A stretch of DNA of 64,000 nucleotides from Candidatus Bathyarchaeia archaeon (GTDB taxonomy: Archaea > Thermoproteota > Bathyarchaeia > Bathyarchaeales > Bathycorpusculaceae). The notes below the pieces were generated by a model. It saw nothing but the letters and a program-made list of their open reading frames with translations, did no database searches and had not been told where the DNA came from. The position numbers and the translations under genes are program-made. Below are positions 1,998 to 12,041 of this stretch, one piece after another (the stretch's first letter is position 1; every line of letters starts with the position of its first letter). The stretch is taken from assembly GCA_041447175.1 (NCBI GenBank), contig CP166960.1, forward strand, positions 1,814,519-1,878,518, read 5' to 3'.

Positions 1998-2267
1998 GTG
2001 GTTTTCAGGGTCCTGCTGCACCCCACTGCGTCCAAGGCTCTGAAAAAACTTGACGAAACCAACAAAACCCACATCAAGGAGGCGCTTGCCGACGTTGCCG
2101 CTGACCCATGGAAAGCTGGAAAACCGCTGCATCCCACAGATTTTTGGAGCACCCGAAAAGGCGACTTCCGCGCCATCTACGAGATAGACTCCGCCCAAAA
2201 CAGTGTAATTGTGCTCTTTGTTGGGCACCGCAAAAAAGTGTACACTGACTTCACTAAAATGCTCTAG
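1998..2267 (+). CDS. relE: RelE/ParE-type toxin
   Basis: An 89-residue protein with GTG start. The pattern of two N-terminal helices (ASKALKKLDETNKTHIKEAL) followed by a compact beta sheet, with WSTRKGDFRAIYEID and a C-terminal GHRKKVYTDF strand, is the RelE/ParE fold. RelE members cleave mRNA in the ribosomal A site; the basic residues in GDFRAIY and GHRKKVY match those used for RNA contacts. It is translationally coupled to the RHH antitoxin, with a gap of 4 bases. Length is normal for the family. Whether the target is mRNA (RelE) or gyrase (ParE) cannot be told from sequence alone. Confidence 0.82.
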   Translation: MVFRVLLHPTASKALKKLDETNKTHIKEALADVAADPWKAGKPLHPTDFWSTRKGDFRAIYEIDSAQNSVIVLFVGHRKKVYTDFTKML

Positions 2268-2281
2268 TCGAAAAATCACAA

Positions 2282-2680
2282 TTAACGGATTCTCATCAAC
2301 TGCACGTCAATGCCATTGAATTCTTCGTCTCTGCCCACCACCAAAGTCGCGTTACATGCTTGGGCAGTTGCCACGGCGAAGGCATCTGCCAGTGACATGG
2401 CGTGTTTGCTTTTGATTTGGGCGGCTTCGCGCCACAACCCGTTGTCTGCGATGGGCACGATTTTTAGTCCGTAGAGCCGCAAGTTGCGCTGTTTCTCCTC
2501 CGCCAACGCAGGATCCAAACGGCACAGGATATAGCAGATTTCGGCCAAGTTCAGCAGGTTCATGTAGCCTTCTGCTTCGCCGTTTTGGATTTTCTGCAGC
2601 AGGTCACGGACGGTTTCTCCGCCTGCCTCGCCCAAGTAAAAAGCCAAAATTGCCTCAGAGTCAAACGCCAACCGGTCCAA
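2282..2680 (-). CDS. vapC: PIN-domain toxin (VapC type)
   Basis: A 132-residue PIN-domain ribonuclease. Acidic metal-binding residues appear in the expected places: FDSEAIL at residue 6 onward, an acidic residue in the middle helix (NLAEICYIL), SLADAFAVATA and the late GRDEEF. VapC toxins cut tRNA or rRNA with Mg2+. The gene overlaps the AbrB-like antitoxin gene upstream by 20 bases, giving the usual antitoxin-first order on the minus strand. Length and motif order are normal, so it looks intact. Confidence 0.82.
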   Translation of the reverse strand: MDRLAFDSEAILAFYLGEAGGETVRDLLQKIQNGEAEGYMNLLNLAEICYILCRLDPALAEEKQRNLRLYGLKIVPIADNGLWREAAQIKSKHAMSLADAFAVATAQACNATLVVGRDEEFNGIDVQLMRIR

Positions 2681-2939
2681 CCCGCTTCTCCCTCTCCTTG
2701 TCGGTTTTGGTTTCTTCTTTGCGTGCTTCCGCCAGCAGTTGCCGCGCCGTTTTTCCCTTGGCCAGGGGCTTTAGGGAGCCGAAGTCGTCGGTGGGGGAAG
2801 GCAGCGGCTTAAGCACAAGTCCGCATGCGTCTTCTTCAAAGACTACCTTGTCTTTTATGCCGTATTTTTGGCGTAGGCGTTTGGGGATGGTGGCTTGCCC
2901 TTTTTTGGTGACGGAGACAACTTCGACCAACTTTTTCAC
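2661..2939 (-). CDS. vapB: AbrB/SpoVT-family antitoxin (VapB type)
   Basis: A swapped-hairpin AbrB domain occupies the first 45 residues (VTKKGQATIPKRLRQKYGIK), the DNA-binding and dimerisation unit of VapB antitoxins; the remaining tail is charged and ends KREKRVGPVGV. The frame stays open further upstream, but those codons give a cysteine- and tyrosine-rich stretch read through the promoter repeats, so GTG at 2939 (VKKLVEVVSVTKKG) is preferred, giving 92 residues. With the TATA-like repeats just upstream, the message is probably leaderless or nearly so. Forms an operon with the PIN toxin at 2282. Confidence 0.8.
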   Translation of the reverse strand: MKKLVEVVSVTKKGQATIPKRLRQKYGIKDKVVFEEDACGLVLKPLPSPTDDFGSLKPLAKGKTARQLLAEARKEETKTDKEREKRVGPVGV

Positions 2940-2941
2940 AC

Positions 2942-2972
2942 AGTAATACTTAAAATAAAAGTAATACTTAAA
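2942..2972. repeat. Tandem 13-bp direct repeat over the VapBC promoter
   Basis: AGTAATACTTAAA occurs at 2942-2954 and again at 2960-2972, an 18-bp period, with a related ATTACTTA at 2982-2989. Read on the minus strand each copy contains a TTTAAGTA TATA-like core directly in front of the vapB GTG at 2939. It is likely both the promoter and the operator for AbrB-like autoregulation. Confidence 0.55.
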
Positions 2973-3084
2973 GATTAAGGCATTACTTATTCTGGAACGC
3001 GGACAACACGGATTGACAATTAACAGAAGAAAGCACAAAACACAAACGAAAGCACCTGTATTGCTGTGCCCATTTGTTGGAAAG

Positions 3085-3092
3085 GTTTATGT
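3085..3092 (+). promoter_or_regulatory. TATA box of the second VapBC operon
   Basis: GTTTATGT preceded by the purine-rich GGAAAG, a good BRE/TATA pair. The predicted transcript start near 3115 lies about 14 bases before GTG 3129 and beyond the more upstream in-frame start at 3066, so the short form of the antitoxin is favoured. Confidence 0.5.
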
Positions 3093-3128
3093 GGGCAAAA
3101 TCGCAGTAAATATTGTGGGTGTGTACAA

Positions 3129-3350
3129 GTGGGTAAAGCTAAGATGGATGAACGGGGCAGAATCCTCATTCCCCTTGACGAACGCGAAAAACTCGGCCTA
3201 AAAGCCGGAGCCGAATTTGACCTCACCAGACAAGACGGCACCCTAATCCTAAAACCCATCCTCCCAAAAATACAACACGTTAACGGAACCCGCCGCAGAT
3301 GGGGCAAGGAAGCGTTCTTTGATGTCGGAGAAGCCACATTCAGTGAATAG
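3129..3350 (+). CDS. vapB: AbrB/SpoVT-family antitoxin (second VapB)
   Basis: A 73-residue protein from GTG 3129. Residues 1-45 (GKAKMDERGRILIPLDERE, then KLGLKAG) form an AbrB swapped-hairpin DNA-binding domain. The tail is basic (TRRRWGKEAFF), as in antitoxins that plug a PIN active site. An in-frame start at 3066 would add 21 residues including three Cys that do not resemble the family, and the TATA box at 3085 would lie inside it. Its 3' end overlaps the PIN toxin gene by 29 bases. Confidence 0.78.
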   Translation: MGKAKMDERGRILIPLDEREKLGLKAGAEFDLTRQDGTLILKPILPKIQHVNGTRRRWGKEAFFDVGEATFSE

Positions 3351-3828
3351 TAGCAGCGAAACGGTGGAGAGGCGGGTTTTTGACCTCAGCGCCTTAGCCG
3401 TGTATCTGGTCAAGGGGCATCCGGGCTACGAGTATGTTTCGCCCGTTGTCGAAGAGGGGTTACGTGGGGGTTACGTTCCGATTGTTTTTGACTTTTTGCC
3501 GATGCGCGCTTACTGGATAATGACGCAACGGTGGAGGCTGCCTAAACAGGAATGCGCCGACACCGTCAAACAGTTCCTGCAAACCTATACAACCCCGCAG
3601 TACCCCGCCCTGACCCGCGAAACCATTCTCAAAGGGTTCCAGCTTGCCGACGAGCTTGGGCATGACGTGTTTGACTGTATGTACCTTGCACTTGCAAGGC
3701 AAGAAAATGCCTCCGCCATAGTCACGACCGATACGGATTTTGAGAAACTCTGCAACCAAACAGACCTAAAATACATTAACCCCGTGCCAGTTGAGGTTCT
3801 AAGACGCTTCAAAGAACAAAACAAATGA
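3322..3828 (+). CDS. vapC: PIN-domain toxin (second VapC)
   Basis: A 168-residue PIN-domain protein starting at ATG 3322; a TTG directly before it is less likely. Catalytic-type acidic residues are visible in FDLSALAVYL (Asp21), the helix DVFDCMYLALAR and the late TTDTDFEKL motif, the normal order for a Mg2+-dependent VapC ribonuclease. It is somewhat longer than the average VapC (about 130-140), with an 18-residue Ser-rich N-terminal extension. Translationally coupled to the AbrB antitoxin at 3129. Confidence 0.8.
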   Translation: MSEKPHSVNSSSETVERRVFDLSALAVYLVKGHPGYEYVSPVVEEGLRGGYVPIVFDFLPMRAYWIMTQRWRLPKQECADTVKQFLQTYTTPQYPALTRETILKGFQLADELGHDVFDCMYLALARQENASAIVTTDTDFEKLCNQTDLKYINPVPVEVLRRFKEQNK

Positions 3829-3928
3829 GTTTAGGTAAGGTAAACCTACTGAGCCTCTTTAGAAGTACTCAAGGAAAGTCAACTGAAGCAAAAAAGCTTA
3901 AACTCGCAAACCACCCATAGTCTTAATC

Positions 3929-4222
3929 ATGCAAGACGCCGAAAACATCAAACGCATCCTCACCATGCATAAAGCAGAACTAAAACGGAAATTCAAGGTG
4001 AAAACCCTCGGTGTCTTCGGCTCCTACATCCGCGGCGAACAAAAAAGCACCAGCGACATTGATGTGCTCGTGGAATTTTCTGAGCCTGTGGGGCTTTTTG
4101 AGTTCATGAAATTGGAGAATTACCTTTCGGATTTGCTGAGTGTCAAAGTGGATTTGGTCTCGAAAAAAGGGTTGAAGCCGCATATCGGGGAACGCATCCT
4201 TGAGGAAGTCGTCATGATATGA
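3929..4222 (+). CDS. mntA: MNT-type nucleotidyltransferase antitoxin
   Basis: A 97-residue minimal nucleotidyltransferase. GSYIRGEQ at 31-38 and SDIDVLVEF at 42-50 carry the GSxxRG and DxD residues that bind the nucleotide and metal. MNT antitoxins neutralise HepT toxins by adding AMP to a tyrosine near the RNase motif. A TATA-like GCTTAAAC at 3896-3903 puts the transcript start within a few bases of the ATG, suggesting a leaderless message. Its stop codon overlaps the ATG of hepT (ATGA at 4219-4222), the normal antitoxin-first order. Confidence 0.85.
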   Translation: MQDAENIKRILTMHKAELKRKFKVKTLGVFGSYIRGEQKSTSDIDVLVEFSEPVGLFEFMKLENYLSDLLSVKVDLVSKKGLKPHIGERILEEVVMI

Positions 4223-4592
4223 AAAGGCGCGACCTTCAAGACTATCTCAGGATATCTTGGACGCCATAAAGGACATTTATGATTTCACCGAAGATACGAC
4301 TTATGAGCAATTTATTAATGACCGAAAAACCCTCAATGCCGTTGTTCGCAGCATTGAAATAATAGGCGAGGCGGCAAAACAACTTCCCGACCCGCTTAAA
4401 GCAAGGTACAGTGAGTTGCCGTGGAGGGAAATCACAGGCATGCGAGATAAGCTTATCCACGCATACTTTGGCATGGATACCGAAACCCTCTGGCAGACCA
4501 TCAAAGAAAACATACCCCCACTAAAGCAGACCATCCAAAGAATGCAGAAAGACCAAGAAAAAGGCAAAGCTGCAAATTCGTTTCCTGCATGA
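4219..4592 (+). pseudogene. hepT: HepT toxin (HEPN RNase) with a single-base frameshift
   Basis: The ATG at 4219 overlaps the mntA stop and reads MKRRDLQDYL, a typical HepT beginning, but then runs into a stop after 16 codons. Moving back one base at 4248 continues with QDILDAIKDIYDF and the rest of a normal HepT to 4592. The bases read ...TATCTCAGG... where TATCTCCAGG would be needed, so one C appears lost. The catalytic HEPN motif RxxxxH is intact in MRDKLIHAYFGM, as is the TETLW segment after it. Either the gene is broken in nature, expressed from TTG 4257 without helix 1, or this is a sequencing error. Confidence 0.8.
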
Positions 4593-4628
4593 AAACCTTA
4601 TAATTCCAAACTACGTATCCTTTTTCAG

Positions 4629-4868
4629 GTGCCAACCTTGACTCAGGCGAATTTAGATGAAGTTTACGCCGAAGTTAAACGCATGCGGCAAGAACTCAAG
4701 TCACTGGAGGAGAACCTTAACAGTCTTGAGGCTCGGCTGATTCCCGAAGAAAAGGTAACCCCTCAAGAGATGAAAGAGCTCAAAGCCCTCAAAAAGGAAG
4801 CTCTACAAGGCGAATGCATATCTTTTGAAGAAGTGCTCAAGAAGCACGGGGCAAAAAAACGTGCCTAA
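4629..4868 (+). CDS. Coiled-coil antitoxin of a RelE-type pair
   Basis: A 79-residue, mostly helical protein with GTG start. Residues 8-45 form a heptad-like helix (VKRMRQELKSLEENLN, then SLEARL), followed by a second helix ELKALKKEALQ and a basic end (KKHGAKKRA). It overlaps the RelE-like gene by 8 bases, which together with its size marks it as the antitoxin. There is no recognisable DNA-binding motif, unlike the RHH antitoxin at 1775. CTTATAATT at 4597-4605 is a good TATA box about 25 bases before the GTG, so the transcript is probably leaderless. Confidence 0.65.
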   Translation: MPTLTQANLDEVYAEVKRMRQELKSLEENLNSLEARLIPEEKVTPQEMKELKALKKEALQGECISFEEVLKKHGAKKRA

Positions 4869-5130
4869 ATACCGCCTGACTTTTCACCGAAAAGCCGAAA
4901 AAACCTTAGACACCCTGGATGAGAAAATCAAGCGGCACCTACTTGAGGAAATAAGCTGTTTAGCAGATTTTACTGGACTCAAAACCAATTTAGACATTGC
5001 AAAGATGCAAGGGCAAAAACACTTCTACAGACTGCGCACTCAAAAGCTGAGAACAGTTTTCTGTGTGGACCAAAAGTCAAAAACAATAATTATTTTGAAA
5101 ATTGAGAAAAGAGAAAACGTCTATGAATGA
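4861..5130 (+). CDS. relE: RelE-type toxin (second)
   Basis: An 89-residue protein from GTG 4861, which overlaps the antitoxin stop; an earlier in-frame start at 4825 would lie well inside the antitoxin gene. The pattern YRLTFHRKAEKTLDTLDEKI, then QKHFYRLRTQKLRTVFCVD and a last strand IIILKIEKRENVYE, is that of the RelE/YoeB/ParE superfamily, with the basic beta-sheet face (RLRTQKLR, KREN) used on RNA. Intact and of normal length. It closes a stretch of five toxin-antitoxin modules beginning at 1775. Confidence 0.8.
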   Translation: MPKYRLTFHRKAEKTLDTLDEKIKRHLLEEISCLADFTGLKTNLDIAKMQGQKHFYRLRTQKLRTVFCVDQKSKTIIILKIEKRENVYE

Positions 5131-6071: not shown

Positions 6072-6470
6072 ATGAAAGAAATCCCAATCCAAATTAAGAA
6101 CCTGACCGCAGGCGACCTCGTTCAGGTTGAGTGGACCGACGCCTCCATCGGCAAGAGCTTGAGCAACGGTTTAGGTGGCATTGATGTCCCCGTCAAAAGC
6201 TGGGGCATCTTCATCGGCGTCCTTGGGCAGAAGCGTCGGCATGTGATTTTGGCGCAGAACGCTTTCCGCTACAGCGATGGCCTCTACGACATTGACTACA
6301 CCGCCGTTCCCGTGCCATGGACTATCAGCGCTACCGTGTTGGCGAAGGGGCATGTTTCGGCGGAGGAAGCCAAAGTCCTGCTGCACAGCTTCACCATCAA
6401 CGAGAAATCCAAATCCGACGCGCACACGTTGGGGCGGTGTCTGCGTCAGCGGAGGCTACGGAATCATTGA
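6072..6470 (+). CDS. Hypothetical protein, first gene of the terminase cassette
   Basis: A 132-residue protein with a beta-rich N-terminal part (LTAGDLVQVEWTDAS, later VKSWGIFIGVLGQKRRHVI) that looks like a small barrel, then a mixed part (YDIDYTAVPVPWTISATVL) and a basic end (RCLRQRRLRNH). No catalytic motif was found and I do not recognise the family. Its stop at 6468-6470 overlaps the coding region of the membrane protein that follows, so it appears to be the head of a tightly packed five-gene unit ending with the ABC-ATPase/acetyltransferase at 9964. Base composition is like the host, unlike the AT-rich segment just upstream. Confidence 0.6.
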   Translation: MKEIPIQIKNLTAGDLVQVEWTDASIGKSLSNGLGGIDVPVKSWGIFIGVLGQKRRHVILAQNAFRYSDGLYDIDYTAVPVPWTISATVLAKGHVSAEEAKVLLHSFTINEKSKSDAHTLGRCLRQRRLRNH

Positions 6471-6724
6471 CGGATTGGGTTAAGCGGGCACTGACGCGGC
6501 GCAAAGGAGCCGACAAAGCAGGACAACAAACGGCAACAGAAGCGTTGCCAAGTGAGCGGCTAGTTTTAGGCGTCAAATTCGCCATCACCGTCACCTTTTG
6601 CCTCTCAGCCGTCGAAATCGCCCACCTTGCCCTGCTTGGCTGCTGGAACAGCGAGGTCTTTGCCGCCATCACAGGGCTATCAGGCACGATAATGGGGATT
6701 CTGATTTCACAAAGGACGGAGTGA
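6437..6724 (+). CDS. Two-helix membrane protein (holin-like topology)
   Basis: The real gene most likely starts at GTG 6437 or TTG 6467; the longer frame from 6317 reads Arg/Gly-rich nonsense across the previous gene. From 6437 it has 95 residues: a charged N-terminal third, then a hydrophobic helix (GVKFAITVTFCLSAVEIAHL), a short turn and a second helix (FAAITGLSGTIMGILI) ending SQRTE. Two closely spaced helices with a charged start recall small phage holins, but holins cannot be identified from topology alone. Its stop overlaps a possible start of the next gene (GTGA at 6721-6724). Confidence 0.5.
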   Translation: MSASAEATESLTDWVKRALTRRKGADKAGQQTATEALPSERLVLGVKFAITVTFCLSAVEIAHLALLGCWNSEVFAAITGLSGTIMGILISQRTE

Positions 6725-7086
6725 GGCGAACCTATTTGGAGCCTAATATTGATTCGATGCAGAAACCTATAGAGGGTAGGAGCCGACAAGCCCAACCAAA
6801 GCGTTTTCTGCAAAGAAGAATCACCAACTTGGCTGAAAAATTTGACGGCGATACCCAAGCCATCCGAGCCCAGCTTATTTTGGACCTTAAAAGCCTGCAG
6901 GAGCTTGCGGTAGAACAAGTTCGGTCAAAAGAAGGCAGAAAAACGTTGGAACATCAAAGCTGGGCAAAACTAGCAACTTACATCAGCCAAGTCATCAACG
7001 GCATAACCAAAACCTACGACGTAACCCAAATCAAAACCGAACTGGACCAACTCAAAAAAGCCATAGGAGAACTCGAGAAGCAATGA
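6721..7086 (+). CDS. Small helical protein upstream of TerL (possible small terminase-like partner)
   Basis: A 121-residue helical protein if read from GTG 6721; alternatives are ATG 6757 (110 residues) and TTG 6829. Residues from about 25 on are two or three long charged helices (QRRITNLAEKF, QLILDLKSLQEL, IKTELDQLKKAIGELEKQ). Position directly before and overlapping (ATGA) the terminase large subunit gene is where phages encode TerS, but no helix-turn-helix is obvious, so this is only suggestive. The first 20 codons coincide with a copy of the dispersed element found at 26138 and 53011, so the N-terminus may have been recruited from, or invaded by, a repeat. Confidence 0.5.
   Translation: MRRTYLEPNIDSMQKPIEGRSRQAQPKRFLQRRITNLAEKFDGDTQAIRAQLILDLKSLQELAVEQVRSKEGRKTLEHQSWAKLATYISQVINGITKTYDVTQIKTELDQLKKAIGELEKQ
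6729..6780 (+). repeat. Dispersed element, copy 1
   Basis: Shares CCTATTTGGA, GATGCAG and CCTATAGAGGG with the element at 53011-53065, in the same order. It begins 5 bases after the stop of the two-helix membrane protein gene and lies inside the next reading frame. The tail CCTATAGAGGGTAGG can fold as CCTA/TAGG. It is the most divergent of the three copies. Confidence 0.65.
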
Positions 7087-8522
7087 CCATGGCACAGTTC
7101 CAACGGGAAATCACGCGGTGCAAACAGAAAGCCGAAAAAGCCGCTCAAAAACAGAAACAAACCTACCCCAAAGACCCCGTGCAGTTCTGCAAAGAAACCT
7201 TAGGCTTCAACCCCACCTCCTACCAAACCGCGCTCATCAGGCAGTTTGAAGAAAACCAATTCGTCGCGGCAAGGTGGGCAAGACAAACAGGCAAAAGCCA
7301 CACCATAAGCGCCCTGCTCCTCCACTTTGCGCTTACCAACCCAAACAGCAACATAGGCATCTTTGGTCCCAGCTGGAGACAAACCAAACTCATAATCAAA
7401 CACATCAACGGCTTCCTCAAAAAACTCCCCACCGAAAACAAAAAACCCCAAAAAACCGCCGTCGCCCTCACCAACGGCAGCACCATCGAAGCATACCCCA
7501 ACAACCCCGAAACCATCCGCGGACCCAAACTCCACATCGTCTACGCCGACGAATTCAACTTCATCCCCAACGACGAAGAACTCTACGACGCCAGCCTCTT
7601 CACGCTGGGCACAACCGACGGCAAATTCATCTGCACCAGCACCCCCTGGCGCACCGACAGCATATTCCACAAAATCTTTCACGACACAGCATACGAGGAT
7701 TACGCCAAAAGCCACGTAACATGGCAACAAGCCGTCGAACCCAACGGTCCCCTCAAGCACAAAATCCTTGAACGCATCAAACGACAACTCGAAAGCGACC
7801 CCGCAAGGTGGAAGCGGGAAATGGAGGCGGATTGGGCAGAGAACCAGAACGCGTGGCTTAGTCAAGCCTTAATCACCAGCTGCATTGACCAAGCCTTGGA
7901 GTACACCAGTTTTGAGCGAGCCGCCAAGGGCTGCTTCTATGCGGGTTTGGATTTGGGCAAACACCAAGACCACAGCGTCCTAGCCATAATCCACGCCGAA
8001 AACAGCCAGCTGCAACTGGCGCATATGCATCGGTTCCCGCTGGGCACACCGTACGCAAGCGTAATTGGCTACGTCAAAACGCTTAACGACCGATGGCAAA
8101 CCCTCCAAAGCGTCTTTGTGGACTGCAGCGGCGTAGGCGACTACATCGCCGAAGACATGCAAAACGCAGGCTTAGACAACGTAGAGGGCATCAAATTCAC
8201 GTTGGAATCTAAACAGGAGATGGCACAGCACCTCAAACAAGCCATGACAGAAAAACGCCTATACATACCATACGACGGAGAGCTTATTGCGGAACTTAAC
8301 GTTGAACAGTACGAGTTGTCCAAGGAAGGCAAAACCAAGTTTAGCCATCCGCAGGGCACACATGACGACCGTTTCTGGGCACTCGCATTGGCAGCTTACG
8401 CCACAAGAGTTGAGCCCGCCCCGCAGTTGTGGGTGGTTGCCAAAACCGCAAACACAGGCAAAACGCGGCTGCAAAAACTTCGCCACCAACGCGCCAAACA
8501 CAAAACACAAGGGGAAACCTGA
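7083..8522 (+). CDS. Terminase large subunit-like ATPase/nuclease
   Basis: A 479-residue protein with both TerL domains. The packaging ATPase part has a Walker A-like RQTGKS (67-72), Walker B HIVYADE (151-157, Asp-Glu) and the coupling motif CTSTPW (184-189). The RNase H-fold nuclease part has AGLDLG (Asp290), VFVDCSG (Asp347) and HDDRFW (Asp428/429), the three acidic sites expected for Mg2+-dependent cleavage. In head-tailed viruses TerL pumps DNA into a procapsid and cuts it. Here it is preceded by a small helical protein (ATGA overlap) and followed at once by an ABC-ATPase/GNAT fusion, with no portal, protease or capsid gene nearby. Third-position C-rich codon use matches host genes, so it is not a recent arrival. 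Confidence 0.85.
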   Translation: MTMAQFQREITRCKQKAEKAAQKQKQTYPKDPVQFCKETLGFNPTSYQTALIRQFEENQFVAARWARQTGKSHTISALLLHFALTNPNSNIGIFGPSWRQTKLIIKHINGFLKKLPTENKKPQKTAVALTNGSTIEAYPNNPETIRGPKLHIVYADEFNFIPNDEELYDASLFTLGTTDGKFICTSTPWRTDSIFHKIFHDTAYEDYAKSHVTWQQAVEPNGPLKHKILERIKRQLESDPARWKREMEADWAENQNAWLSQALITSCIDQALEYTSFERAAKGCFYAGLDLGKHQDHSVLAIIHAENSQLQLAHMHRFPLGTPYASVIGYVKTLNDRWQTLQSVFVDCSGVGDYIAEDMQNAGLDNVEGIKFTLESKQEMAQHLKQAMTEKRLYIPYDGELIAELNVEQYELSKEGKTKFSHPQGTHDDRFWALALAAYATRVEPAPQLWVVAKTANTGKTRLQKLRHQRAKHKTQGET

Positions 8523-9964
8523 TGACCCGCCGCAAAGAAACCCTTCAAGTCACCAAACTCAAACGGGTCTACAACCGCGCAAAGGGCACATTCTGCTTTG
8601 ACATCAGCTACCAAACCGCACCTGCTCAACGTAGCCAACGCACACGGGAAGTGGCGGAAGCGTTTGGACTGGGCGAAGACACAACCCAGCAGTTCACCCT
8701 CTACGACAACGTGCAGCTAAAAATCCGCCCAACCGACATCGTGCTCATCACCGGAGACAGCGGCAGCGGAAAATCCGCCCTTCTCAAAGCCCTCAAAGCC
8801 GACCTAGGCACCGAAGCCCAGGACGCCAAAGACCTCAACATCAAACCCGACACGCCCATCATCGAGACTGTCGGCGAAACCACCACCCGCGCCCTGGAAG
8901 TTCTCAGCAAAGTCGGCTTAAATGATGCCTTCCTGTTTCTGCGCAGCTATGCGGAACTGAGTGATGGCCAGAAACACCGTTACCAAATCGCAAGCTTAGC
9001 CCAGACCAGCGCGCAGTGGTGGATTTTGGATGAATTCACAAGCACACTGGACCGGGACACCGCCAAAATTGTTGCCTATAACCTTCAACGCCTCGCCAGA
9101 GCGCAGGGAAAAGCGGTTATAGCCGCGACCACTCACGCGGATTTGCTGCGGGATTTGGTACCCAACGTGCACATCCACAAACGCTACGGCAAACAAGTCA
9201 CCGTCCGCTACCACCCCAACGCCAAAGCCAAAACGTGCAGCTTAACCCGCCAAATGCACGTCGAGCAGGGCACAACCACAGACTACAAAGCCCTCAGCCC
9301 ATTCCATTACCGAACGGGGCGTTTGCCGCCTTCACGCAACATTTTTGTCCTCAAACGCAAAGCGGAACTCTGCGGCGTCATCGTGTACAGTTATCCGTCG
9401 CCGATGTGTTTTGGACGCAGCAAAGCTTGGAGGGGCACGTTCACAGAGTTGCAGCAGCAAGTGAGTATAATTAGCCGTGTTGTGGTGCACCCCAAGTACC
9501 GCAGCATTGGCTTAGGCGAAAAAATCATCCACGAAACCCTACCTATCTGCGGCACACCCTACGCCGAAGCCGTCGCGGTTATGGCAAAATATAACCCGTT
9601 TTTTGAGAAAGCAGGCATGCAAAAAACCGCTCAAAGCCAACCCCACCCCGCCGTCACCAAAGCTCTGGCGCAACTGCAGTCGCTTGGATTTGACGCTGCA
9701 TTGTTGTCCAGCGAAAGCCACAACCAACAGCGGCTCAACCAAATCGGCACACAACCTGTCCTCGAGGTGCTACAGGAACTGTCTAGGCTAAATGGCGCGG
9801 TACGCAAACGCATCGCGAACCTCACCAACGTTTACCCAAAGCATGAGGAATTTGTCAACAAAATCGGCAGCCTTGACGCTGGGGGTTTGGCGAAAGTTTT
9901 GAAGCGGCTGAGTTTTGCGGCGCAAACCAAGGTTTACCTATTTTGGGCGGGGAGCCAACTGTGA
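8522..9964 (+). CDS. ABC-type ATPase fused to a GNAT acetyltransferase domain
   Basis: A 480-residue protein from ATG 8522, which overlaps the terL stop; the longer frame from 8429 lies inside terL. The ATPase half has Walker A GDSGSGKS (78-85), signature LSDGQ (146-150), Walker B WWILDEF (166-172) and the switch His in TTHADL (His205). The second half has a GNAT acetyl-CoA site, VVVHPKYRSIGLGEKII at about 320-336. There are no membrane segments, so it is not a transporter. Archaea carry a known family of ABC ATPases fused to a predicted acetyltransferase (COG2401); its role is not established to my knowledge. The stop-start overlap with the terminase suggests they act together. Confidence 0.82.
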   Translation: MTRRKETLQVTKLKRVYNRAKGTFCFDISYQTAPAQRSQRTREVAEAFGLGEDTTQQFTLYDNVQLKIRPTDIVLITGDSGSGKSALLKALKADLGTEAQDAKDLNIKPDTPIIETVGETTTRALEVLSKVGLNDAFLFLRSYAELSDGQKHRYQIASLAQTSAQWWILDEFTSTLDRDTAKIVAYNLQRLARAQGKAVIAATTHADLLRDLVPNVHIHKRYGKQVTVRYHPNAKAKTCSLTRQMHVEQGTTTDYKALSPFHYRTGRLPPSRNIFVLKRKAELCGVIVYSYPSPMCFGRSKAWRGTFTELQQQVSIISRVVVHPKYRSIGLGEKIIHETLPICGTPYAEAVAVMAKYNPFFEKAGMQKTAQSQPHPAVTKALAQLQSLGFDAALLSSESHNQQRLNQIGTQPVLEVLQELSRLNGAVRKRIANLTNVYPKHEEFVNKIGSLDAGGLAKVLKRLSFAAQTKVYLFWAGSQL

Positions 9965-10937: not shown

Positions 10938-12041
10938 TTGAAAAGCATAAACGAGCTTGGATTTAAACAGCTTTTCCCCATACAAGCTCAAGCCATCTTG
11001 CCCCTGCTTGAAGGCAAAGACGTCATCGGGCAAGCCCAAACCGGAACCGGCAAAACCGCTGCGTTCGGCGTGCCCATGGTAGAAAGATTAGACCCCAGCA
11101 TCAGAAAAGTTCAGGGCTTAGTTTTGGTGCCTACACGCGAACTTGCCATGCAAGTTGCAAACAACATGCACCTGTTTGCTAAATACAAAAAACTACGCGT
11201 GCTGCCCGTTTACGGCGGAGCCTCCATGGAAAGGCAAATCCGCGAATTATCCAACGGCGCCCAAATCGTGGTTGGTACCCCGGGACGCGTAATTGACCTG
11301 TTGGAACGCCGCGTGCTGAACTTGGCTTCGGTGAAGGTTCTGGTTTTGGATGAAGCGGACCGCATGTTGGACATGGGTTTCATCGATGACATCACCTTCA
11401 TTTTGTCGCGGGCGCCCTCAACACGGCAGACTAGCCTGTTTAGTGCAACCATCGACAAGACGGTCATGAAGGTCTGTAACCGCTACATGAAGAACCCCGT
11501 GAAAATCTTTGTTAGCAAAGACGAGATTGGGGTGACGCAGATGAAGCAGTACTACAAGATTGTTAATCAGGGCGCCAAATTTGATGCCCTATGCACCATA
11601 CTGCATGACAGCGAAGTTGACCGCGCCATTGTGTTTTGCAGGACGCGTCATGAAACCAGCAAGGTCGCGGATAAGCTTGCGAAGAAGGGTTATCGAGCGC
11701 AGGCGTTGCATGCGGGGTATACGCAGCCTCAGCGGGAACGTGCCATAAACGCGTTTCGTGCAGGAAAACTGAATCTGCTGGTTGCCACGGATGTGGCTGC
11801 TAGGGGACTGGACATTGACGGCATTACGCATATAATCAACTTTGATGTCCCTGAGGACCCGTTGGTGTATTTCCACCGTGTAGGCAGAACTGCGCGGAAA
11901 GGTTCGGACGGCACAGCCATCACTTTAGTTAGTTATGGCGAGATGAGCAATTTTGACAGCATCAAATCCATAACCAAAACCAAAATTGAGGTTATGGATA
12001 CGGTTTGCAGTCAGGATTCGCCTGTTGTGGGCTTTTTTTAA
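10938..12041 (+). CDS. DEAD-box ATP-dependent RNA helicase
   Basis: A helicase of 367 residues from TTG 10938, with Q-motif FPIQAQAI (13-20), Walker A AQTGTGKT (33-40), DEAD (138-141), SAT (169-171) and HRVGRTAR near 315. It unwinds short RNA duplexes in RNA folding, ribosome assembly or decay. The frame stays open back to 10851 and the codons before the TTG read FQDLPLSREVL, exactly the conserved start of this family, yet that stretch has no ATG, GTG or TTG. The protein therefore probably begins upstream at a non-standard codon, such as ATC at 10881 next to a GGAG, or the region contains an error. There is no long C-terminal tail. Confidence 0.9.
   Translation: MKSINELGFKQLFPIQAQAILPLLEGKDVIGQAQTGTGKTAAFGVPMVERLDPSIRKVQGLVLVPTRELAMQVANNMHLFAKYKKLRVLPVYGGASMERQIRELSNGAQIVVGTPGRVIDLLERRVLNLASVKVLVLDEADRMLDMGFIDDITFILSRAPSTRQTSLFSATIDKTVMKVCNRYMKNPVKIFVSKDEIGVTQMKQYYKIVNQGAKFDALCTILHDSEVDRAIVFCRTRHETSKVADKLAKKGYRAQALHAGYTQPQRERAINAFRAGKLNLLVATDVAARGLDIDGITHIINFDVPEDPLVYFHRVGRTARKGSDGTAITLVSYGEMSNFDSIKSITKTKIEVMDTVCSQDSPVVGFF

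Follow-up and report, generated by a model that had tools for sequence, protein, structure and literature searches.

What does an ABC ATPase that has no transporter beside it, and that ends in an acetyltransferase fold, do directly behind a viral terminase gene? The question is raised by a gene at positions 8522–9964 (+) of a 64,000-nucleotide stretch from a Candidatus Bathyarchaeia archaeon (assembly GCA_041447175.1, contig CP166960.1, 1,814,519–1,878,518, forward strand), here called the window, in which positions count from the first letter. It encodes a protein of 480 amino acids, ABC-GNAT. Our tentative answer is that ABC-GNAT is an accessory enzyme of the packaging region of tailed viruses, in which a cytosolic ABC ATPase would drive or gate a GNAT acyltransferase acting on DNA. 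The acyl group would most likely go onto a base of DNA that is awaiting packaging, in a manner reminiscent of Mom in phage Mu, and may protect the packaged DNA from restriction. In this archaeon the enzyme would be part of a virus-derived head-tail-terminase set that passes down with its host and probably no longer acts as a virus in its own right.

The genome holding the window (G000) is a single contig of 2.73 Mb, 97% complete, while the other genomes compared are, with few exceptions, drafts in several contigs. Genomes are designated by G-numbers, loci or stretches by L-numbers, and genera as g1, g3, and g11. Two types of ABC-GNAT, type-1 and type-2, were separated by eye from identity and E-value.

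Domain architecture of ABC-GNAT

The open reading frame contains no internal stop and, as the original prediction had proposed, encodes a real fusion of an ABC ATPase with a GNAT domain. The ATPase domain (approximately residues 35–235, positions 8624–9226) is recognized by Pfam (ABC_tran, E 2.5e-13) and has the ABC fold together with Walker A GDSGSGKS (residues 78–85, 8750–8776), the LSDGQ signature (residues 146–150, 8957–8971), a Walker B ending in D170-E171 (9029–9034), a D-loop, and the switch H205 (9134–9136). The GNAT core (approximately residues 246–372, 9257–9637) was delimited by the AlphaFold model, structure matches, and the alignment, and includes an invariant His-Tyr pair (H262-Y263, 9305–9310), an acetyl-CoA loop (approximately 9500–9517), and VVVHPKYRSIGLGEKI at residues 320–335. 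A helical C-terminal part follows in the model (9638–9961), and the terminal strand 471–476 falls within the range aligned to GNAT structures. The Pfam GNAT models score weakly and under their cut-offs (best Acetyltransf_10, E 4.1e-4), and the protein belongs to the GNAT superfamily by its acetyl-CoA loop and fold: structure comparison matched GNAT structures to the AlphaFold model of this part, in which the mean pLDDT (predicted local distance difference test) is 92.7, against 92.5 for the whole protein. The acetyl-CoA site, on whose conservation the original prediction depended, is well kept, since 18 of the 19 motif residues checked are invariant in 21 type-1 orthologues and G330 is retained in 20 of the 21.

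Two more familiar roles were considered and rejected. The protein consists only of ABC and GNAT domains and its upstream neighbor is the terminase large subunit (TerL), which agrees with the earlier view that it is not linked to a transporter; among the neighbors no transporter membrane subunit was recognized by Pfam on five window proteins and by reading of the open reading frames, with no membrane predictor run. Regarding known defense systems, 20 PADLOC families match ABC-GNAT (best mad3, E 2.6e-15, and mad8, E 1.7e-12), and by reading these are ABC/AAA-type matches; no PADLOC family matched TerL. In NCBIfam 160 families match, of which the best 25 of the 160 are ABC proteins, each match being under the family's own cut-off.

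Linkage to the terminase and to tailed viruses

TerL (7083–8522, +) is identified by Terminase_6N (E 1.2e-16) and phrog_2 (E 1.8e-43), and its TGA (8520–8522) shares one base with the ATG of ABC-GNAT (8522–8524), so the overlap described from the sequence is real. In all 20 type-1 TerLs the aspartates of the nuclease motifs are invariant, as are the G-K pair of Walker A and the D-E pair of Walker B. A TerL search of the same genome gives three matches, in the window, at 1.524 Mb, and at 2.72 Mb, and because every one of them has an ABC-GNAT homologue within 0.9 kb the linkage appears to be more than chance. At the third locus (L118, 7896–10668) ABC and GNAT are encoded in different frames, with TerL and a portal gene after them, and the GNAT part looks by reading like the compact form found in phages.

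Of the 398 genomes sampled from the phylum, 64 contain homologues at E<=1e-20. The archaeal linkage sample comprised 75 full-length ABC-GNATs from the fetched phylum stretches and the window, of which 44 have TerL within 300 bp, always on the same strand and in 43 of the 44 upstream. TerL occurs anywhere in the stretch for 53 of the 75, as judged with a profile built from these archaea that distant TerLs may escape. Among the 22 loci left without TerL, 14 (L054, L083–L085, L088, L090, L091, L097, L098, L104, L106, and L108–L110) sit among at least two head or tail clusters, and eight (L070, L080, L093, L105, L107, L112, L113, and L122) do not; PHROG scans of cluster representatives identified portal, major head, tail, and tape-measure proteins. 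The proposed association with terminases is thus borne out in the phylum sample and in IMG/VR, where 23 of 35 loci have TerL at most 500 bp away, but only partly among named GTDB loci (22 of 47 within 500 bp), and the Desulfurococcales-type relatives among the latter gave no TerL profile match in the fetched flanks, some of which are short. These relatives are perhaps a separate chromosomal branch. Where complete, those of L168–L178 and L181 (Desulfurococcales and other Thermoprotei) have about 650 amino acids, and in L168 the GNAT part (292–358) comes before the ABC part (456–594).

The same partnership extends to bacterial tailed viruses. ABC-GNAT is matched by 58 phage records, and 11 phages, picked for variety among 40 of the 58, were examined (Mariokart matches the ABC part only). 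Nine of the 11 have ParB upstream of the homologue and TerL downstream. ParB lies directly upstream of ABC or ABC-GNAT in hairong, Cyrano, SSU5, LE3, Jace, Pmp13, BUCTxx99, and Mariokart, and one gene further upstream in RHph_N1_10; TerL starts at most about 1.5 kb after the last of these genes in eight (counted across the ends of the linear record for Cyrano and SSU5). In Jace, again across the record ends, the distance is up to about 6 kb. The opened records of vB_VmeM-32 and EastWest showed neither ParB upstream nor TerL following. The best viral-protein match of the full model is the GNAT protein of Leptospira phage LE4 (362 columns, E 1.9e-18). Among archaea, a ParB-like gene (cluster 22, on the opposite strand, ParB by reading) was seen near ABC-GNAT in L083 and seven other loci.

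Some of these phages carry ABC and GNAT as separate adjacent genes with ParB, and SMC_N and AAA_23 match ABC-GNAT weakly, under their cut-offs, beside ABC_tran in Pfam. Both observations would suit a DNA-handling factor, whose ABC dimer would hold DNA or process it ahead of packaging, with a structural or regulatory role left for the GNAT part. However, the GNAT residues are nearly invariant and compact phage forms still keep GNAT together with ABC, so that we regard such a factor as unlikely.

A head-tail gene set behind the cassette

In a genome of the same genus (G249) ABC-GNAT is the last gene of a collinear block that has nrdDG on one side and a DEAD-box helicase on the other, in the order head genes, portal, tail tube, tape-measure-like gene, tail genes, p133 (a protein of unknown function), small hydrophobic protein, TerS-position gene, TerL, and ABC-GNAT. 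It was considered that the cassette of the window had been kept without head and tail genes, and this proved wrong: the block lies just upstream of the window (genome positions 1795113–1810181, minus strand; L264 is genome 1794519–1814518), in an inverted segment that also includes nrdDG when compared with G249 and with G237 of the same genus; some other genomes have it far away. It encodes a major head protein (L264 13022–14131; phrog_267, E 3.9e-15), scaffold/decoration-like and HK97-gp10-like proteins, a portal (Phage_portal, E 7e-6, under cut-off), and a tail tube (Phage_tube_2, E 8e-19). Head, portal, tail tube, and terminase are all present in this genome; over the genomes compared, the full retention expected of a gene transfer agent gives a mixed picture, because of the tail genes (see below).

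To follow the block we used the gene beside the major head protein, which is at best protease-like (phrog_7015, E 0.005, in the G249 copy) and serves only as a marker. It was found in 28 of 90 genomes of the family (E<=1e-120), and ABC-GNAT in 36 of 90, about 29 of them type-1 by reading. A type-1 ABC-GNAT is present in 25 of the 28, and with G321 and G178, which have a lower-scoring marker, our own tally of genomes with both is 27. Those of G281 (54%) and G388 (52%) overlap the type-2 range of 49–55% and were called type-1 as single copies 34–36 kb from the marker. The two genes are 11–38 kb apart in 11 of the 27 genomes, widely separated in three (62 kb in G340, 89 kb in G178, and 181 kb in G231), and more than 100 kb apart in G328, G321, G207, and G309, as they lie there on different contigs far from contig ends; draft contigs leave nine undecided. 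The f39 genomes G253, G098, G247, and G279, three of which are 57–77% complete, gave no head marker of this type.

Inheritance and selection

The type-1 genes diverge together with their hosts. Distances correlate with those of RpoB at 0.80 for ABC-GNAT, 0.85 for portal, 0.66 for the head marker, 0.84 for p133, 0.89 for tail tube, 0.89 for the tape-measure-like gene, 0.80 for tail6, and 0.59 for t14 (10–19 genomes each, pooled over genera), and the permutation test gave 0 of 1000 for each of these eight genes. TerL follows the host poorly (r 0.28, 11 of 1000), since two divergent alleles of it occur (see below). As a control, 12 type-2 (provirus-type) ABC-GNATs of six genomes gave r -0.01 over 58 pairs, against 0.80 over 15 pairs for the type-1 ABC-GNATs of the same six genomes. 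Genes shorter than a minimum length in amino acids were dropped (marker 300, portal 280, TerL 350, ABC-GNAT 380, tail13 230, tail6 350, p133 90, t14 240, and TMP8 120); the RpoB of G429 in L306 looks like a contaminant, L318 being used in the final correlation, and G309 and G178, with no RpoB match, stand outside it.

Integrases point in the same direction. Measured from the ABC-GNAT start, a tyrosine integrase lies within 25 kb at two of 16 type-1 loci (G431 and G423) vs. 10 of 17 type-2 loci, and of the seven type-2 loci without one, four are on contigs of only 5–12 kb. These counts leave out rows under the Pfam cut-off and three further rows; if weaker rows count, G281 (E 3.3e-5, 7.6 kb from the type-1 gene) is a third type-1 case. 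No PF00239 resolvase was found in the genome of the window. Provirus-like type-2 copies and the type-1 set coexist, and the latter seems to be passed on with the host rather than mobile.

The gene set is also under purifying selection. For pairs below 30% protein distance, and for genes of the set only, median dN/dS (ratio of nonsynonymous to synonymous substitution rates) is 0.14 for ABC-GNAT, 0.15 for TerL, 0.11 for the head marker, 0.07 for portal, 0.10 for tail tube, and 0.11 for p133, with a range of 0.07–0.22 over the 25 unsaturated pairs of ABC-GNAT; unsaturated pairs were 25 of 26 for ABC-GNAT, 51 of 52 for TerL, 19 of 25 for the marker, 46 of 136 for portal, 29 of 30 for tail13, and 39 of 63 for p133. 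These ratios and the retained motif residues speak against a plain decaying provirus in which the cassette is a fossil surviving by chance. There are signs of decay that such an account would explain: the inversion in the genome of the window, the G237 stretch, where head genes and portal are kept and the only tail gene seen in the fetched 76 kb is a fragment of 159 amino acids with no other tail marker, an in-frame stop in the G309 marker, a G321 TerL spread over two frames, and, for eight of 21 genomes, no tail tube within the stretches retrieved, which cover the genomes only in part. Weighing both sides, we consider this quite improbable.

Being inherited, conserved, partly split, and mostly without an integrase, the set looks more like a gene transfer agent than like a virus, whether active or dead. 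It resembles the bacterial RcGTA and the archaeal VTA, the latter being the gene transfer agent of Methanococcus voltae, in host co-divergence, purifying selection, some split blocks, and the usual lack of a nearby integrase, and differs from them in its patchy occurrence, in carrying ABC-GNAT, and in being known from genes alone. The most specific version, in which one bathyarchaeal family would have domesticated a gene transfer agent equipped with an ATP-gated DNA acyltransferase, host DNA being acylated at the terminase and so surviving restriction in the recipient, is in our judgment unlikely as a whole, and selection may instead act on parts of the set for another use, e.g., defense.

TerL alleles and the terminase as a target

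The original prediction had named the terminase as a possible target of acetylation. In this account the GNAT part would acetylate TerL or another protein of the packaging machinery, such as the portal or the TerS-position protein, and the ABC part would sense DNA or ATP, thereby regulating packaging. The overlap with TerL, the conserved co-orientation, the protein acetyltransferases Ard1 and RimI among the similar folds, and a partial correlation of ABC-GNAT with TerL given RpoB of 0.34 are all in its favor. However, the type-1 TerLs form two alleles (13 and 7 genomes) with p-distances of about 0.65 between them, both occurring in g1 and g3, and ABC-GNAT and p133 stay orthologous beside either. 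The other allele is found at the type-1 loci of G066, G184, G207, G281, G297, G388, and G428, and in G066, G184, G207, and G281 the TerS-position gene differs too, with p133 and ABC-GNAT retained. If the enzyme were fitted to a protein substrate, the two should change together, and the orthology of the ABC-GNATs next to such divergent TerLs weakens TerL as the target. In g3 and g11 together, ABC-GNAT distances are 0.315 for 16 same-allele pairs vs. 0.291 for 12 different-allele pairs; in g1 they are 0.288 (six same-allele pairs) vs. 0.371 (four different-allele pairs, all involving G066). In favor of TerL as target, G066, the only g1 genome carrying the other allele, is also set apart by its ABC-GNAT. 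The alleles are moderate evidence only against TerL as substrate, and we rate acetylation of a packaging protein as unlikely.

A recent exchange of the head-tail block probably took place between G321 and G178 (L288 and L289), where the blocks are nearly identical (0.06–0.07) and the ABC-GNATs differ by 0.21. Together with the TerL alleles, this shows that exchange continues.

Relation to Mom and to other GNATs

DNA as the substrate is suggested by earlier work and by comparison with Mom, a GNAT of phage Mu that modifies adenine. ABC-GNAT appears, from its domains and context, to belong to the family of phage GNATs coupled with ABC ATPases in tailed viruses, which we take to be COG2401. For this coupling, a passage of PMC7824862 cites a prediction by Iyer and colleagues (2013) of acyl modification of a DNA base. 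One phage annotation of the family uses the name "MK0520 protein." The likeness lies in the domain pair, the tailed-virus context, and the predicted base acylation, a named member of the family being QAX98348.1; ABC-GNAT differs in being archaeal, in the fused order ABC then GNAT, and in its helical tail, TerL overlap, and host-inherited gene set.

In hhalign the invariant H262-Y263 aligns with the His-Tyr of Mu Mom, a pair that is presumably important there. A profile of 58 ABC-GNAT domains (50 archaeal and eight phage) reaches 83–84% against nine Mom proteins, with the alignment starting at the shared His-Tyr, and Mom against seven other GNATs of the window's genome (those of its 15 passing a length filter) reaches 0.1%. 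By Z score the Mom structure 8bv8 comes second (14.3, over 144 residues with a root-mean-square deviation of 3.1), tied with other rows at 12.9–14.6, and when the whole protein is compared with viral models, a predicted phage Mom appears at rank 38 (E 3.4e-4); absence from the viral-model or Foldseek match lists carries no weight. In phage Antuna a ParB gene lies directly upstream of a Mom-family gene. Mom (PF25680) thus shares the GNAT fold and the aligned His-Tyr and differs in having no ABC ATPase. ABC-GNAT may work like Mom, and our own evidence leans weakly toward acylation of a DNA base; membership of the Mom family itself was rejected, with the Pfam cut-off missed and the motif and the mixed profile only suggestive.

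Several observations weigh against a Mom-like packaging enzyme. The Pfam Mom model gave no match to ABC-GNAT at E<=0.01, and the best relative scanned, Pmp13, reaches it at E 0.034 with 14.2 bits vs. a cut-off of 27.1. The archaeal profile alone reaches 39% and the phage profile alone 63% against Mom, and the mixed profile reaches 89% against the same seven ordinary GNATs; single-sequence scores vary widely (0.5–43 for Mom proteins and 0.3–78 for the control GNATs, two third-locus pieces aside). Foldseek ranks YncA, TmcA, Ard1, and NAT10 above Mom, with 8bv8 at rank 32, and ParB stands beside Mom in one of nine loci opened, that one (Antuna) having been chosen for it. Homologues without a nearby terminase exist, in GTDB loci and in the phages vB_VmeM-32 and EastWest. 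Other points bear on the gene transfer agent scheme. Presence is patchy, 62 of the 90 family genomes, many of them incomplete, having no marker at the threshold used, and tail genes were not found in some of the fetched stretches, as mentioned above. Finally, all seven cases of separation by more than 60 kb fall in g3 and g11, and for this reason the split may be one event.

The Foldseek matches TmcA (rank 2) and NAT10 (rank 7) raise a further alternative, RNA-directed acetylation by an ATPase and a GNAT acting on cytidine. TmcA/NAT10 likewise couple an ATPase, of helicase type, to a GNAT that acts on a nucleic acid, in their case RNA. They are not known from a virus context, and the packaging surroundings of ABC-GNAT and its ParB partner in phages make this very unlikely; a tRNA target, as once suggested, found no support in this analysis. 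A DNA acyltransferase of the packaging region, driven by ATP, is the reading we keep, tentatively.

Neighboring genes in the window

Upstream of TerL and on the same strand there are three small genes: one in the TerS position (6724–7086, +), named TerS by position only and matched in PHROG to a family that has no assigned function; a small hydrophobic protein (6467–6724, +; TM85 cluster) of uncertain start and judged membrane-bound by reading; and p133 (6072–6470, +), whose window copy has no Pfam or PHROG match and whose cluster, present in 37 of 91 loci, shares the strand of ABC-GNAT and lies upstream of it. The host flanks are a gene after nrdD (1–675, +; radical-SAM/nrdG by reading), which borders the gene set on the left in both G249 and G237, nrdD itself (Pfam) sitting just upstream of the window, and a DEAD-box helicase (10938–12041, +), the right neighbor in g1. 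Near the inversion breakpoint there is a run of toxin-antitoxin-like genes (1998–5130, names by reading), with RelE-type genes at 1998–2267 and 4825–5130, a nucleotidyltransferase/HEPN-like pair at 3929–4592, and PIN- and AbrB-like genes; of these, the RelE and nucleotidyltransferase clusters are seen again next to the cassette of related genomes.

Significance

The main texts of PMC10848311 and PMC11705971, on Bathyarchaeia viruses and archaeal proviruses, do not contain "ABC," "acetyltransferase," or "GNAT," and the passages of PMC6078989 (LE3/LE4) and PMC5512222 that we saw assign no such function. Among the matches listed by a literature search, seen in part, none holds both "gene transfer agent" and "Bathyarchaeia." If our reading is right, a decade-old prediction of DNA base modification would become testable, through the gene pair and residues K84, E171, H262, and Y263, and the cultured phages with a homologue, Leptospira biflexa LE3/LE4 and Rhizobium phages, would be places to seek the modified base. 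The only archaeal gene transfer agent known to us is that of M. voltae. If our reading holds, a common and abundant class of archaea would have a virus-like packaging system kept by its hosts, and such a host may keep a virus-like machine that both packages DNA and marks it chemically.

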